Assembly: GCF_000687835.1 (NCBI RefSeq)
Contig: NZ_JHYB01000002.1
Coordinates: 310,001 to 374,000, forward strand
From: Haploplasma modicum ATCC 29102
Lineage (GTDB): Bacteria > Bacillota_I > Bacilli_A > Acholeplasmatales > Acholeplasmataceae
Reading direction: 5' to 3'
Length of the DNA stretch: 64,000 nt
Position 1 is the stretch's first letter; every line of letters starts with the position of its first letter. Of the stretch, positions 42,298 through 49,421 are shown piece after piece. The translations under genes were made by a program, and so were the position numbers. The notes below the pieces were generated by a model that was given only the letters and a program-made list of their open reading frames with translations, made no database searches and was not told the DNA's origin.

Positions 42298-42332
42298 ATA
42301 AAGGGGGAAATGATTAACACTTCCCCCTTTTG
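42298..42332 (+). terminator. GC-rich terminator after the thioredoxin-like gene
   Basis: AAAGGGGGAA, 10-base loop, TTCCCCCTTTT (to 42331). Strongest stem of the window. Confidence 0.9.
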
Positions 42333-42333
42333 T

Positions 42334-42519
42334 TTAACATGCATCTGGTGCATAGTCAGTATAAATATAGATTTTATTATATTTAAATTCTGTTGATGTA
42401 ACATTAACTACTGAAAAATCAATATATTTTAATGTATCAACACCAATTGGTGTTCTAACACGATCTGTTACTACATAGTTAGTAACTTTTTCTTTTTCTA
42501 AATATTCTTTTAGTGTCAT
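42334..42519 (-). CDS. Small unrecognised protein
   Basis: 61 residues, soluble, starting MTLKEYLEKEKVTNYVV at an ATG with AGGAAGTG upstream; an earlier in-frame ATG lacks an SD. Predicted helix then beta strands, ending YTDYAPDAC with one terminal cysteine. No family recognised. The SD and intact frame support a real gene. Confidence 0.55.
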   Translation of the reverse strand: MTLKEYLEKEKVTNYVVTDRVRTPIGVDTLKYIDFSVVNVTSTEFKYNKIYIYTDYAPDAC

Positions 42520-42580
42520 ATTAATCACTTCCTTCATGTTTATTATATACCTTTTTAAAATTTAATTAATTGAATATGCA

Positions 42581-42865
42581 TTAAATAAAATTGAAATATC
42601 TTTGGTAGATAGTAAATAAAATTCCAATTAGTGTAAGCCCTAAATAAATATATAATATTATGTTATATTTATAATCTTTCTTATCTTTATCTAAATAAAT
42701 AATATAACCTAAAGAAAGAGGGATTAATACTATTTTAAATGCTTTTTTAAGCTCTATTTGATTTTTTAAAACTAAATAAATACGATACATTAATGTTACA
42801 GGAATAAATGTAATAACAGCAATCATCATTGTTGTTTGGAAAATTAATAACATTAAACTAAACAT
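42581..42865 (-). CDS. Small membrane protein, last gene of the DUF2130/phosphoesterase operon
   Basis: 94 residues, three hydrophobic segments (about 2-30, 43-55, 67-88) with a lysine/aspartate loop DKDKKDYKY. Its ATG is shared with the stop of the 44-residue gene upstream (TAATG) and preceded by GGAGG. Family not recognised. Confidence 0.7.
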   Translation of the reverse strand: MFSLMLLIFQTTMMIAVITFIPVTLMYRIYLVLKNQIELKKAFKIVLIPLSLGYIIYLDKDKKDYKYNIILYIYLGLTLIGILFTIYQRYFNFI

Positions 42866-42999
42866 TATTTTAACCTCCAAACTATAATTAAAGGTATTAA
42901 GTTTATTAAAAAATATAATAAACTTCCAAATAAAAAGTATAGAAAAATACTTATTATTAATGTGTTAATAAATAAAATTATTTTATCATTTTTACTCAT
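42865..42999 (-). CDS. 44-residue membrane microprotein
   Basis: Reads MSKNDKIILF to RLK and stops at TAA that overlaps the next ATG. Almost entirely hydrophobic from residue 7 to 41, with a central glycine (G25) and proline (P36), so one long or two short helices. AGGTGA lies before the ATG, and its start overlaps the metallophosphoesterase end by 8 bases. Overlap on both sides and the SD make it credible despite its length. Confidence 0.65.
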   Translation of the reverse strand: MSKNDKIILFINTLIISIFLYFLFGSLLYFLINLIPLIIVWRLK

Positions 43000-43954
43000 T
43001 GCTATCACCTACTAAATAAGTACTTATATTATCAAGATTATTAATCATAATAATTCTTCCACCCTTTTTGTTAGTACCATATGCGTTATAACCACTATTT
43101 CTGCCATAGGCTAGCATAATGTTATCCTTATAAAATTCAAACTCATTTGTGTGATCATGACCAACAAAAACACCTAGTGTTTTACCAACTTCTACTAATT
43201 TAGAAAATAGACCTGTATTTTTACCTTGTGTCCAAATTGTTTCATTAGGTATCCCTTCATAATCAAGAAATTCAACTAAAGGAATATGCATAAAAACTAG
43301 GTTTTTACCATCATCTAATTTTGCTTGACGGTAAAACCAATCAACTTGTTCTAAACTTAGATAATCATATTTATTATCGCTTATAACATTGTCTGTTCTG
43401 TTTGCTTTTGTATCTAACATATAAATATAAAAACTTCTATTTGTTAAATTAATTTTAATCTTAAAATTTGAATATCCATGTGTGTTGTCATCACTTAATT
43501 TTTCACCTTGATGAAATATTAGATTTTTAGTTTTAACCCGTTTTATTGAATTAACAATTTGTTCCATCGTATGATACTCCATTTCATGATTACCGAAGGT
43601 AAAAGTATAAGGAATATTATACTTATCTATTTTTTTAATAAAGTCTTTAATCAAAAACTTAGCATAAATACTCATCACTAAATCTCCGGTAAAAACAATT
43701 AAATCAGGTTTTTCCTGTTTAATAATCGTATCAATTAATTTATATGTTTTTCTATCAAGATAATCAAAACCATAAGTTAAATGCAGATCCGTTAGTTGTA
43801 GTATTTTAAGATTATCTTTATTTATAGTTACATCTTGAATACTACTATTACTAAAGTCATCTGCTAATTCTTGTTTATCAAATGAAAAAACTGTTAGATA
43901 GAAAAGTGTCGTTAGAAATATTAAACTTAAACTTACAATTAAAAGTTTTTTCAT
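42992..43954 (-). CDS. Membrane-anchored calcineurin-like metallophosphoesterase
   Basis: 320 residues. N-terminal membrane segment (about 4-23) then the phosphoesterase domain: DLH (D56, H58), GD (90-91), GNHE (121-124), MHIPL and GHDH (about 276-279), the full set of two-metal ligands. Resembles the Dcr2-like phosphoesterase group. Probably acts outside the membrane on a phosphoester of unknown identity. Overlaps the DUF2130 gene by 4 bases. Confidence 0.88.
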   Translation of the reverse strand: MKKLLIVSLSLIFLTTLFYLTVFSFDKQELADDFSNSSIQDVTINKDNLKILQLTDLHLTYGFDYLDRKTYKLIDTIIKQEKPDLIVFTGDLVMSIYAKFLIKDFIKKIDKYNIPYTFTFGNHEMEYHTMEQIVNSIKRVKTKNLIFHQGEKLSDDNTHGYSNFKIKINLTNRSFYIYMLDTKANRTDNVISDNKYDYLSLEQVDWFYRQAKLDDGKNLVFMHIPLVEFLDYEGIPNETIWTQGKNTGLFSKLVEVGKTLGVFVGHDHTNEFEFYKDNIMLAYGRNSGYNAYGTNKKGGRIIMINNLDNISTYLVGDSNE

Positions 43955-45258
43955 TTGTCTAATTGCTCAATTCTTTTTGTGATTTGTCGTATTTTAAAGT
44001 TTCTAATTTTATTTTTAACAGTTTCTAAGTGGGTATTTAAAATAGTATTTGCAGCACTTAATAATTTTTCATTAGCTTTAGTTATATTTTCACTTTCTTT
44101 TAAGATTATATCGATGTTTTTATTGATGTTTAAAATTGTAACATCTAAAATATCATCTTTCATTTTGTTGAAATCATCATTGATTTCATTTAAATCCTTA
44201 AACTTAATTTCTTCACGTTTTTGTTCTGTTAAAATATCTTTATATTTAAGTCCAAATGCAGTTATAATATTTAAAAGTGTAATAAAGTATGGTGGTCTTA
44301 CAATAAACATTTTATCGTATTCGGTTACCCGTTCAATTGCGATATTATTATTTTCATGCCAATCTAACTCACTAACTAAAATTGCATATTCTAGCTTTTT
44401 CTTATTGCGGTCACTGTCTAATTTTTTTAAAGTATTACTTAAATTTTGTTTATTAGGAGCATTAGGATCTTCACTTTTCATCTCAAGCATCACACTACTT
44501 AAAATAAAGTTTTCATCTAAACTATTATCACCATAAACCTTATAAATAAAGTCACCTTTTGTTTTGTCACTTATATCATTATCTTTAGTCCAAGAGATGT
44601 AGTTTGGCATTAAGAGATTATTTTCTCTAAACTGATTGTCACACCAGCTTTCTAAATCCTCACCTATACGTTTAATTGTTAGATTACTTCTTTCACGTTT
44701 TAGATTATCTATTTCTAATTTTAGAGAATTTATTTTTTGACTATATGTATTTTCATAACTTAATAAATTAATTTTATTTTGTTCACTTAATAACTTATAT
44801 TCATTTTCTAATTTAAGTAAAGCCTCTTTTTTTATATTCAGTTCATTATCATACTTCTTAGTAATAGTTAGCTCTACATCTTTCTTTAGAAGTTCAATAC
44901 TATTTTCTAATTTAGCATATGATAAATCTTTATCTTTTAGTTTATTTAAATATTTAGTCTCTAAATTATTTGTAATCTCATTTTCTTTTGATTCTAAATC
45001 TTTTTTAAGTAATGCAATTTGATTTATTAATTTATTTTCTTTTTCAATCATTAAAAGTTTGAACTCAGCTTCAATTTTTTCATGATACTCTTTTAATTTA
45101 TCTTGATATATTTTATCTTTTTCTTCTTCTATCTTTTTTAAAATAATACTTGTATCAATAAAGACTGTATCTTTTATATTTACTAAATCACCTTTTTTAG
45201 CATCACTTTCTAACCTAAGTGTATACTCATCTATAATTGTTGCTTTTACTATACTCAT
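43951..45258 (-). CDS. DUF2130 protein: long coiled coil plus PD-(D/E)XK nuclease-like domain
   Basis: 435 residues. About 1-30 a beta segment; 35-190 strongly charged coiled coil; 200-345 the DUF2130 core with GEDLESWCDNQF, KGDFIYKV, VMLEMKSEDP, KKLDSDRNKKKLEYAILVSEL; then a helical tail. The D...ExK arrangement (GDF, then LEMK) suits the PD-(D/E)XK nuclease superfamily, to which the family has been related. Role in cells unknown. ATG at 45258 preceded by GGGAG. First gene of a coupled operon with the phosphoesterase and two small membrane genes. Confidence 0.85.
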   Translation of the reverse strand: MSIVKATIIDEYTLRLESDAKKGDLVNIKDTVFIDTSIILKKIEEEKDKIYQDKLKEYHEKIEAEFKLLMIEKENKLINQIALLKKDLESKENEITNNLETKYLNKLKDKDLSYAKLENSIELLKKDVELTITKKYDNELNIKKEALLKLENEYKLLSEQNKINLLSYENTYSQKINSLKLEIDNLKRERSNLTIKRIGEDLESWCDNQFRENNLLMPNYISWTKDNDISDKTKGDFIYKVYGDNSLDENFILSSVMLEMKSEDPNAPNKQNLSNTLKKLDSDRNKKKLEYAILVSELDWHENNNIAIERVTEYDKMFIVRPPYFITLLNIITAFGLKYKDILTEQKREEIKFKDLNEINDDFNKMKDDILDVTILNINKNIDIILKESENITKANEKLLSAANTILNTHLETVKNKIRNFKIRQITKRIEQLDK

Positions 45259-46228: not shown

Positions 46229-46253
46229 AGTCATTAATTTGACTTTATTTTTT
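46221..46253. terminator. Bidirectional terminator
   Basis: AAATAAAGTCA (46223-46233), 6-base loop, TGACTTTATTT (46240-46250), with T and A flanks. Between the nucleotidyltransferase gene and the convergent esterase gene. Confidence 0.82.
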
Positions 46254-46847
46254 ATATATATTGTTATAAAACTTCATAACACCAGAAATCACTTCATTAT
46301 CAATTACGTGACCACTAATTTCAAGTGTTGTTAAATTTGCATTTGCATTAATAAGTCTATTATAAAGCATGTTAATACTATCTTCATTTACATAAGGATC
46401 GTTATATGAGTAAGTTAGAAAAACATTTTTATTAGAAAGATCAACAAAATTACTATCCTTATTAATTAAATCACTACTTAATAAAATATAATTATTTAAA
46501 GTATCACTAAAATCAGTTAATAATCCTAAAGCAATATTAGCCCCATTTGAAAATCCAATTATTGTTGCTTGATTTAAATCAAACTCAAATTCACTACTCA
46601 ATAATAAAATTGTATCTCTTAAGTTTTTTGTTTCACTTATATAGTTTGGGATGTCATAAACACCCATACCAAACCTCTTGAAATAGCGATTTAAGCCATT
46701 TTCACTTACATTGCCTCTAATTCCTAGCAAATTAGCATTAGGGTCAATAAATGCCCCAATTTTAAGCAAACTATTTTCATCACCACCAGTGCCATGTAAT
46801 AAAATAATTGTTCTGTCACTTTGATTATTTATATATTTATATATCAT
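46245..46847 (-). CDS. Alpha/beta-hydrolase, MhqD/carboxylesterase-like
   Basis: 200 residues from the ATG at 46847; a GTG at 46856 is an alternative start. Oxyanion motif LLHGTGGDE, nucleophile GFSNG (S100), acid D in YNDPYV, and H in SGHVID. The group includes B. subtilis MhqD, induced by hydroquinones. Placed directly after a MarR regulator and two ring-cleaving-type dioxygenases, matching that regulon's content. Likely an esterase detoxifying quinone adducts or products. Confidence 0.85.
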   Translation of the reverse strand: MIYKYINNQSDRTIILLHGTGGDENSLLKIGAFIDPNANLLGIRGNVSENGLNRYFKRFGMGVYDIPNYISETKNLRDTILLLSSEFEFDLNQATIIGFSNGANIALGLLTDFSDTLNNYILLSSDLINKDSNFVDLSNKNVFLTYSYNDPYVNEDSINMLYNRLINANANLTTLEISGHVIDNEVISGVMKFYNNIYKK

Positions 46848-46848
46848 C

Positions 46849-47289
46849 TTAAACACTCATTCCTATTTTTTTTAGTAATATAACTAAAATGTCTTTCTCG
46901 TCTTTAGTTAAAACATTAAATATTTTTTTTAGTTTATCGTAATGATTAGAAAAAATTTCTTCACAAATATTTTCCCCTTCACTTGATAATTCAATATAGT
47001 TTATTCTCTTATCTTCTTGACATTTACTTCTAGTAATTAATCCTTTTTTTAAAAGTTTATCTAAAATATAAGATAGTGATGAATTAGCCACTAATACTTT
47101 TTCCTTGATACTACTTACATCAATTTTTTTCTTATGATAGATAACTTCTAAAACAGAAAATTCATTTAGATCAAACCCTGTTTCTTTAATATCATTTTTA
47201 ACAAATTCTATTAGTGATTTATGAGCCTTAAATAAAGCAATCATCGGTTTCAATGAATTTTTATCTTCTACTAAACGATTATTATTCAT
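46849..47289 (-). CDS. MarR-family repressor, MhqR-like
   Basis: 146 residues. Winged helix from about 45: FDLNEFSVLEVIYHKKKIDVSSI, recognition helix ANSSLSYILDKLLKKGLI, wing KCQEDKRINYIEL. Family members sense phenolics, quinones or oxidants. ATG at 47289 overlaps the upstream dioxygenase by 8 bases. It is encoded inside the cassette it probably controls, whose promoter holds TTCGAATTCGAA. Confidence 0.88.
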   Translation of the reverse strand: MNNNRLVEDKNSLKPMIALFKAHKSLIEFVKNDIKETGFDLNEFSVLEVIYHKKKIDVSSIKEKVLVANSSLSYILDKLLKKGLITRSKCQEDKRINYIELSSEGENICEEIFSNHYDKLKKIFNVLTKDEKDILVILLKKIGMSV

Positions 47290-48271
47290 TAAAGTACTCT
47301 TTCTCAAATACCTTATTACTTCTTACGGTATCAATATGTCTAACAACTTTTTCAATATATGCTCGGTTATTTCTAAACTTAGGTGGTAGGGCTAATGTCT
47401 CACCTAGATTTATATAAGTTTCTTCATCATCAATGAAGCCTGGCTCATCGGTTGCTAGTTCAAATAAAACATTTAGATATAATCTTGTATAAACACTTTT
47501 AAAGTAAAATCTATCAACGTATCCAGAGTTTGGTGCTCCAAATTTATCTAATCTTTCTTGCCAGTTAGATAAATCCTCTTTATTTCCAACTCTAAAAGCA
47601 ATATGGTGGATTGCTCCATATCCTTGATAGCTTGGTTTATTATTTTGTTGATAATTAATGATCAAACTTGCTCCGTTACCACCTTCACCCATTTCATATA
47701 GGTAGTAGTTATTTTCAACTTTTGTTTGTCTCATTAAAAATATTTCTGTAAGAATTGTATTAATACCATCTAATCTACTTACATTAATATAAATTGGTCC
47801 AAGTCCTGTAATAGCAAAATGATCGGGAACTGGTCCATTTTTCCAAGGAGTTCCACTATTAACACCACTATTTAACTCATCTGAGATAAGAGCGTATAGT
47901 TGTCCGTCAAAATCTTCAAATTCAATTATTTTCTTACCAAACATTGTTTTAATTTCGCTATGCTTTACTTTATAATGGTTAAATCTTTTTAACCAATATT
48001 CAAGTGACTTATCATTAGGTACTCTAAAACCTGTTCTATTTAGTTCATTATTACCATGAACCGCTTTACTTATTCCTTTAAAATCAAAAAATGTCATATC
48101 AGTTCCTGGACTACCTAAATCATCGGCAAAAAATAGGTGATATGTATCAATATCATCTTGATTTACAGTTTTCTTAACTAATCTAAGACCTAAAACATTT
48201 GTAAAAAAATCATATATCTTCTCAGCACTACTTGTTATTGCTGTAACATGATGTATTCCTTTTAATTGCAT
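47282..48271 (-). CDS. VOC-family ring-cleaving dioxygenase (MhqA/MhqO-like), copy 2
   Basis: 329 residues, two pairs of VOC modules. Opens LKGIHHVTAITSSAEKIYDFF and has GAIHHIAFRV in the second half and LFELATDEPGF, giving the His/His/Glu metal triad. Family members are annotated as extradiol-type ring-cleaving enzymes for hydroquinones. One base after the first copy's stop, SD GGAGG within it. About one third of positions look shared with copy 1. Confidence 0.88.
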   Translation of the reverse strand: MQLKGIHHVTAITSSAEKIYDFFTNVLGLRLVKKTVNQDDIDTYHLFFADDLGSPGTDMTFFDFKGISKAVHGNNELNRTGFRVPNDKSLEYWLKRFNHYKVKHSEIKTMFGKKIIEFEDFDGQLYALISDELNSGVNSGTPWKNGPVPDHFAITGLGPIYINVSRLDGINTILTEIFLMRQTKVENNYYLYEMGEGGNGASLIINYQQNNKPSYQGYGAIHHIAFRVGNKEDLSNWQERLDKFGAPNSGYVDRFYFKSVYTRLYLNVLFELATDEPGFIDDEETYINLGETLALPPKFRNNRAYIEKVVRHIDTVRSNKVFEKEYFNE

Positions 48272-48272
48272 T

Positions 48273-49421
48273 TTAATCCTCCACTTCAATACTTTCTAAA
48301 GTATTTTTAAAATTATTTTTGAAAACATTTATATACTCATCTCTAAGTTCTTTTTGTTCTTTAATTTCTAATTCTGATAAATCTCTTGTATTTTTAAGTT
48401 TTGCTAGTTCATTTAATCTTCTTAAAACAAAATCAAAACGATTAGCATCTAAATATCCAATACTATCTAAGTAATGATGTCTTTTAAGTTTGCTTACTTC
48501 ATTTACATAAACAGGAATCAAATTACTTTCAATTTCTTCTCTATTAGCTTCAAAGTGTGGTGGCAAAAATAACTTTTCTGCTCTATCATCAAATTCTTCC
48601 ATATTAAAACCTGGTTTCATTGTAGAAAGTTCAACAATAGATCCCCCTGGTTCTCTAAAATAGATGGCATTAAAGAAGTTTCTATCCTTAATATCTGTAA
48701 CAACAATTCCTAAGTCTTCAATTGTTTTCTTAAAATTAATTAAAGCTTCTAAAGTTTCAACACCAAATGCAATGTGATGAATTGTTCCCTTTGATAATTT
48801 ACCTCGTAAATACGCATCTTTATTAATATCTAAGTAATTACCAATTTCACTATTTAATTCTAGTCTAATAAAATCTTGATCTTCATTTGAAATTTTAGCA
48901 CCTAGAACATCTGTAAAAAACTTAACTGTATCTTTTGGTTTCATTGAATGGATTAGTGCCCCATAGAAACCTTTAATTGAGTTTTTGCTTGTTACACCAT
49001 TATATTCATATAAATTAGTAATACCACTACTATCTTCTACTAATTCATTTGTTATTCCTAAATAGTCACTGAAAACTAAATGTTTTTTACCAAACCTTGT
49101 AATTTCATTAGTTTTTAACCCAAATGATTTAATTCTATCATGCCAAAAGTCAAAACTACCATCAGGAATGATATAGTATGTACTTACTGCTTGGCCACCA
49201 CCCTTTTTACCATCTTTTGCATCTTGTCCAAGTGGGAAAGATGTAATAACTGTTCCTAAATCTCCATTATGGTTACCATAATAGAAATGATATGTTTTAG
49301 CATCATCAAAATTTACTGCTTTTTTTATTAACCTAAGTCCTAGTAGACTTGTATAAAATTCAATATTTTCTTGTGGATGATTTACTATATTTGAGATATG
49401 ATGTATTCCTTTTATTTTCAT
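48273..49421 (-). CDS. VOC-family ring-cleaving dioxygenase (MhqA/MhqO-like), copy 1 with C-terminal extension
   Basis: 382 residues. Opens KIKGIHHISNIVNHPQENIEF, with GTIHHIAFGV and IVELSTMKPGF supplying the metal ligands in the second half. Beyond the dioxygenase core (to about 300) is a helical extension of about 80 residues rich in Lys/Glu/Leu that copy 2 lacks. First gene of the cassette; promoter with internal palindrome at 49449-49477. Confidence 0.88.
   Translation of the reverse strand: MKIKGIHHISNIVNHPQENIEFYTSLLGLRLIKKAVNFDDAKTYHFYYGNHNGDLGTVITSFPLGQDAKDGKKGGGQAVSTYYIIPDGSFDFWHDRIKSFGLKTNEITRFGKKHLVFSDYLGITNELVEDSSGITNLYEYNGVTSKNSIKGFYGALIHSMKPKDTVKFFTDVLGAKISNEDQDFIRLELNSEIGNYLDINKDAYLRGKLSKGTIHHIAFGVETLEALINFKKTIEDLGIVVTDIKDRNFFNAIYFREPGGSIVELSTMKPGFNMEEFDDRAEKLFLPPHFEANREEIESNLIPVYVNEVSKLKRHHYLDSIGYLDANRFDFVLRRLNELAKLKNTRDLSELEIKEQKELRDEYINVFKNNFKNTLESIEVED

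Follow-up and report, generated by a model that had tools for sequence, protein, structure and literature searches.

A conserved gene trio joins a predicted surface phosphoesterase to two small membrane proteins in wall-less bacteria

Comparison of the window, the whole 64,000-nucleotide stretch of the Haploplasma modicum ATCC 29102 genome analyzed here, with related genomes identifies a conserved unit of three genes. They encode a metallophosphoesterase, a microprotein of 44-54 amino acids and a membrane protein of about 95 amino acids. The module shows gene linkage, coupling signals and purifying selection, and its enzyme carries an intact metal site and an export signal. On balance we think it probable that the three products work as one module, in which a membrane-anchored, outward-facing dimetal phosphoesterase would be complexed with two small membrane subunits and would act on a phosphoester substrate. 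Our search of the literature found no description of this trio, and none of any metallophosphoesterase paired with a microprotein or a small membrane protein.

Results

Layout and coupling of the locus

The original prediction described four minus-strand open reading frames at this locus, overlapping by 4 (DUF2130/phosphoesterase), 8 (phosphoesterase/microprotein) and 1 (microprotein/94-aa protein) bases; frames, coordinates and overlaps are exactly as it described them (Table 1). It had also seen here an undescribed, translationally coupled unit. Such a unit is present, with the same geometry in about 40 other loci and with Shine-Dalgarno motifs placed inside the preceding genes. Because of this recurrence, and because the microprotein frame is under purifying selection, the overlaps in the window exceed chance.

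Table 1 Features of the locus in the window
Feature	Coordinates	Strand	Evidence
DUF2130 protein, 435 aa	43951-45258	minus	Pfam DUF2130
Calcineurin-like metallophosphoesterase, 320 aa	42992-43954	minus	Pfam Metallophos; 57-sequence alignment; structure model
Membrane microprotein, 44 aa, predicted two-helix hairpin	42865-42999	minus	homologues in the same position in 43 other loci
Membrane protein, 94 aa, 2-3 hydrophobic segments	42581-42865	minus	alignment; profile search
Small ORF, 61-67 aa, soluble-looking, likely start 42519	42334-42537	minus	homologue after the trio in congener G001
Shine-Dalgarno GGAGG of the 94-aa gene, within the last codons of the microprotein gene	42874-42878	minus	
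Shine-Dalgarno-like AGGTGAT of the microprotein gene, within the end of the phosphoesterase gene	43004-43010	minus	
Terminator-like hairpin, 13 pairs, 3' of the fifth ORF	42300-42330	minus	1 found vs 0.2 expected in shuffles

In 41 of 42 loci the third gene of the trio has a Shine-Dalgarno-like motif, which falls within the final codons of the microprotein's reading frame. In the relatives this motif encodes a conserved ending of the microprotein, GGKKHV (GGAGGTAAAAAACATG), which, given its position, serves at least in part as a ribosome-binding site; in the window GGAGG is retained and the GGKKHV ending is not. The genes for the microprotein and the 94-aa protein are predicted to be translationally coupled.

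The terminator-like hairpin is the sole such site on the minus strand and sits amid two converging genes. Since the fifth ORF precedes it, DUF2130, the trio and this ORF probably make up one five-gene transcript, and the DUF2130 gene thus probably shares a transcript with the trio in the window genome. Promoter-like matches equal the shuffled expectation and are thus uninformative. The fifth ORF (MTLKEYLEKEKVTNYVVTDRVR...) has no Pfam match; a homologue of 57% identity lies directly 3' of the trio in congener G001, and the ORF is a companion of the trio at the level of the genus only.

The phosphoesterase and its two partners are the conserved unit

With each GTDB species represented by one genome, the microprotein is present in 39 of the 43 best genomic loci (L080-L122) and both partners in 37; two of the gaps fall where a contig stops short. 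The trio occurs in Acholeplasmatales, Izemoplasmatales and close MAGs; its loci are mostly MAG contigs, for which we use the names as deposited. The overlaps within the trio are nearly fixed, the first being 4 nt in 33 of 44 loci and the second 8 nt in 36 of 44. A profile of the microprotein finds exactly 14 significant matches in 61 related genomes (E <= 5e-14, the next best being 0.0035). All 14 adjoin a phosphoesterase, and the genomes that hold them are exactly the 14 of the 61 in which the phosphoesterase is present. The profile of the 95-aa protein, run against 296 genomes of the class, also finds 14 matches; 13 stand directly after phosphoesterase and microprotein, and the remaining one (L172) is partial and broken. 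Mapped on a tree of 57 enzymes, a quick tree with open forks, presence of the trio needs two changes compared with 17.8 in shuffles, a distribution that a history of one gain and one loss (at L116) would fit.

The trio stays while its flanks change. A NUDIX hydrolase, a 150-aa protein, a thioesterase and an ABC-F protein surround it in most Acholeplasmataceae, unrelated genes in Izemoplasmatales and DUF2130 in the window genus. About half of the family lacks it, so it is not essential.

Where the common Acholeplasmataceae arrangement is seen (L060-L072, L080-L122), the NUDIX hydrolase and the 150-aa protein, which is anchored at its N-terminus, lie upstream of the trio; the thioesterase (4HBT type) and the ABC-F ATPase lie downstream, with several 4-base overlaps. 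The 150-aa protein carries the motif KR[YF][IL]NE and belongs to no Pfam family. A shared MYVVR motif raised this protein as an analogue of DUF2130, which was rejected at an HHalign probability of 1.2%.

The two small membrane proteins

The microprotein, first proposed from the window as a 44-residue product, is a real and conserved protein. Homologues of 44-54 aa occupy the equivalent position in 43 other loci, and the microprotein's dN/dS of 0.05-0.16 in the closest pairs indicates purifying selection. The corresponding values for the 95-aa protein are 0.07-0.30, again from the closest pairs, as more distant ones are saturated and uninformative. Two hydrophobic segments are seen in 32 of 44 microproteins and positive C-terminal ends in all 44, which makes a hairpin with both ends inside likely. 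The third protein of the trio has two or three hydrophobic segments and measures about 91-106 aa in the relatives (one outlier of 76 aa probably has a mis-called start); the alignment of the 94-aa protein displays conserved P49 and G53 and a PLS[IL]G motif. Identity between the window proteins and their families is 11-32% for the microprotein and 16-47% for the 94-aa protein, in proteins whose hydrophobic stretches make them easy to align.

Neither the 44-aa and 94-aa proteins nor their relatives have a Pfam family above cut-off. Assignment of the microprotein to YgaP-like_TM (PF11127) was rejected, as the score of 17.3 bits, seen in one of 14 members, is below the curated cut-off of 25.3. Kinship between the microprotein and the 95-aa protein was also considered, and none was found.

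The phosphoesterase: metal site, fold and substrate

The window phosphoesterase matches Pfam Metallophos (PF00149) above its curated cut-off (E 1e-12; 49.3 bits against 21.5); no specific NCBIfam model reaches cut-off with it, and a PDB sequence search gave nothing specific. Throughout the 57-sequence alignment the metal ligands D56, H58, D91, N122, H123, H223, H266 and H268 are invariant. The full PF00149 ligand set, D-x-H, GD, GNH(D/E), H and GHxH, is kept, including G90-D91, G121-N122-H123 and G265-H266-D267-H268. We infer that the trio enzyme is a dimetal calcineurin-like phosphoesterase, for which hydrolysis itself is predicted.

The solved folds closest to the structure model (pLDDT 91, pTM 0.87) are those of Mre11, purple acid phosphatase and Rv0805, with TM values of about 0.5-0.6, and they do not single out a substrate. 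The best structural matches include the purple acid phosphatases of pig and human (TM 0.53-0.64, 14-17% identity). The Listeria phosphoesterase Lmo2642 (PDB 2xmo) has the dimetal fold in common with the trio enzyme (TMq 0.60, E 9.5e-9) at 14% identity. The motifs HIPLxx[FY], GHDHxND and GYxxYG presumably recall plant and fungal phosphatases of the PAP28/29-Dcr2 type, which we take as a lead only; a solved Dcr2-type structure for comparison was not found. While fold and complete dimetal ligand set are common to the calcineurin-like superfamily, the trio-type enzymes differ from it in their export or lipidation signal and in their two dedicated membrane-protein genes. The superfamily is already known; the novelty would lie in a phosphoesterase of the cell surface whose microprotein partners are obligate. 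Acholeplasma oculi and relatives (L123-L125, L132, L142, L147) also have paralogues of the phosphoesterase, with open frames of about 505-540 aa, which stand without the trio.

The resemblance of the fold to nucleases and nucleotidases would suit an extracellular nucleotidase or phosphodiesterase for scavenging of DNA and nucleotides, tethered by the small proteins for efficient uptake. This role would also fit the DNA-eating life of the Izemoplasmatales, which, with their relatives, feed on extracellular DNA and need dephosphorylation at the surface ahead of uptake (PMC8289736, PMC10470597). We nevertheless find it improbable. The fold match is superfamily-wide, and the conserved surroundings of the trio include neither a nuclease nor a nucleoside transporter. 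Moreover, all trio genomes among the 61 encode a 5'-nucleotidase C-domain protein, which gives scavenging another candidate besides the trio.

Export, anchoring and the gain of the partners

A hydrophobic N-terminal segment precedes the catalytic domain in all 35 trio enzymes tested, compared with 3 of 22 trio-less relatives. The other 19 begin directly at the catalytic domain; the three exceptions are two Bacteroidota enzymes and L116. This distribution agrees with the earlier view of the phosphoesterase as secreted or membrane-facing. A lipobox cysteine ends the segment in 32 of the 35 (31 by pattern, L111 by eye). The window enzyme presents no lipobox and a plain N-terminal helix of residues 2-27; it is predicted to have lost the lipobox, to keep this helix uncleaved and to face outside with its catalytic domain. 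Loss of the lipidation machinery was rejected as the cause of the missing lipobox, as an Lgt gene was found in the window genome.

Outside the clade, the enzymes closest in sequence come from Clostridia and Paenibacillus (L126-L158); these trio-less, cytosolic phosphoesterases share about 27-37% identity with the window enzyme. Unlike the trio enzymes, the trio-less rows have no small membrane genes downstream and, in 19 of 22, no N-terminal export segment. The tree and the distribution of the export segment together indicate that export and partner gain coincide, which suggests that a cytosolic phosphoesterase became a surface enzyme while gaining two membrane partners. At L116 a trio-type enzyme with a lipobox is followed by neither the microprotein gene nor the 95-aa gene, and a tRNA-like sequence stands there instead; we infer that it is a natural case of loss of the partners.

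Operon linkage and translational coupling are no proof of a complex, which limits the reading of the small proteins as subunits. They could instead be products of a coupled operon with a separate job, such as help in assembly or export, or ion handling. Loosely related functions are often joined in bacterial operons, and the NUDIX, thioesterase and ABC-F flanks are likewise overlapped or closely packed in many genomes and yet are exchangeable. However, the trio holds together across two orders in which every flanking gene changes, the microprotein never occurs without the enzyme in the 61 genomes, and export coincides with the gain of the partners. We consider a separate job somewhat unlikely.

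Membrane export gained together with two intramembrane partners would also suit a lipid substrate. The enzyme might trim a lipid of the outer leaflet or a polyprenyl-phosphate carrier, presented to it by the two membrane proteins. This is quite improbable, in our judgment, as the conserved neighbourhood is without a lipid-synthesis gene, and the trio genomes among the 61 already have BacA-type undecaprenyl-diphosphate phosphatase (13 of 14) and PAP2-type phosphatases (14 of 14). With those enzymes in almost every trio genome, the trio is no replacement for them. The proposal that it replaces BacA, PAP2 phosphatases or 5'-nucleotidases was dropped, all of these families being present in trio genomes.

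DUF2130 is a neighbour and not a member

The gene upstream of the trio in the window is a clear member of DUF2130 (PF09903; E 2e-44, 152 bits, cut-off 26.7). The original prediction had joined it with the other three in one four-gene system, possibly for nucleic-acid or envelope surveillance. Three of the four hold together as a conserved unit; the fourth does not belong to it. When DUF2130 and the phosphoesterase were searched separately in the 61 related genomes, they were found to adjoin in 2 of 26 DUF2130 loci, both within one genus. The predicted linkage thus recurs, in the same order, in congener G001, but nowhere outside the genus, where every trio locus lacks DUF2130. In G003, G016, G018 and G035 the two genes are far apart or on different contigs, and the 26 neighbourhoods contain no other partner conserved beyond close kin.

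Congener G002 presents the window flanks without the trio. Its DUF2130 gene lies between orthologues of the flanking thioredoxin-like (58%) and nucleotidyltransferase (62%) genes. The DUF2130 gene and the thioredoxin-like gene end about 40 bases apart, stop codon to stop codon, with neither the trio nor the fifth ORF there, and no phosphoesterase or microprotein match was found anywhere else in this assembly, which is 93% complete. Among 37 genomes of the family, 8 have both trio and DUF2130, 6 the trio only, 6 DUF2130 only and 17 neither (Fisher p = 0.085), a weak association.

The DUF2130 protein itself is probably a nuclease, as judged from its residues and its model. An N-terminal segment is followed by a helix at 37-214 (coiled coil), a PD-(D/E)XK-like core and C-terminal helices. 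The catalytic D...(E/D)xK residues anticipated at the outset are kept in 29 sequences, with D236 and K261 invariant and E or D at 259. In the model (pTM 0.44) a 178-residue helix leads into a strand-strand-strand-helix-strand core, an alpha-beta-beta-beta-alpha-beta order that fits PD-(D/E)XK. The earlier assignment to this fold agrees with residues and strand-helix order, and the PDB fold matches include many such nucleases (McrC, HindIII, MspJI, EcoT38I), though weakly, all with E > 0.04. A PDB sequence search with the protein gave nothing specific, and the titles and abstracts found in our literature search hold nothing on the experimental function of DUF2130.

A role in nucleic-acid surveillance or defence was not borne out. 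PADLOC gives no defence match for the four window proteins and weak coiled-coil-type matches in two DUF2130 homologues only, and a viral collection holds one distant, trio-less relative; association with phage or defence was rejected on these grounds. The coupled overlap in the window, the same order in one congener and the kept catalytic residues are what a four-gene system would predict. Set against the rarity of the adjoining arrangement, the trio-less G002 locus with both window flanks, the trio loci outside the genus and the blank PADLOC result, such a system is very improbable, and DUF2130 was rejected as a member on neighbourhoods, on G002 and on the weak co-occurrence. The trio acquired DUF2130 and the 61-67 aa ORF as neighbours within a single genus.

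Discussion

In the mechanism that we favor, a dimetal calcineurin-like phosphoesterase would be anchored at the outer surface of the single membrane of a wall-less cell, by a lipid in most species and by the N-terminal helix in the window species. The microprotein and the 95-aa protein would be small membrane subunits, made in step with the enzyme by translational coupling, and most likely would hold, place or regulate it at the membrane. The complex would hydrolyse an extracellular or outer-leaflet phosphate ester, which may be that of a nucleotide, a phosphosugar or a lipid head group. A bolder version, unlikely as we see it, has the two membrane proteins form a dedicated intramembrane platform that feeds a specific lipid-linked or translocated phosphoester to the outward-facing enzyme. 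Such a complex would be specific to wall-less bacteria and would have been assembled as the cytosolic enzyme was relocated to the surface along with two new membrane proteins.

The window genome, of 1.22 Mb, has no penicillin-binding transpeptidase domain, as expected for a wall-less cell. Further along the window, genes for an esterase, a MarR regulator and a glyoxalase/dioxygenase stand in a row (46245-49421), which we take to resemble a quinone-response operon of the mhq type. The glyoxalase ORF (48273-49421) has a C-terminal DUF896 domain at residues 333-382 (E 5e-14), and homologues of the three genes lie beside the trio, on the opposite strand, at L094. Among the relatives of the window organism are Acholeplasmataceae as well as wall-less, free-living taxa, for example Peloplasma aerotolerans, a carrier of the trio that exists in culture (PMC11122141).

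These results remove a misleading link between DUF2130 and the phosphoesterase. They set the conserved microprotein (44-54 aa) and the other orphan membrane protein, both without a curated family, in a context open to testing, that of an obligate genetic partnership with a predicted surface enzyme in free-living wall-less bacteria. The tree suggests a concrete evolutionary step, in which a cytosolic phosphoesterase may have moved to the surface as two membrane partners were acquired.
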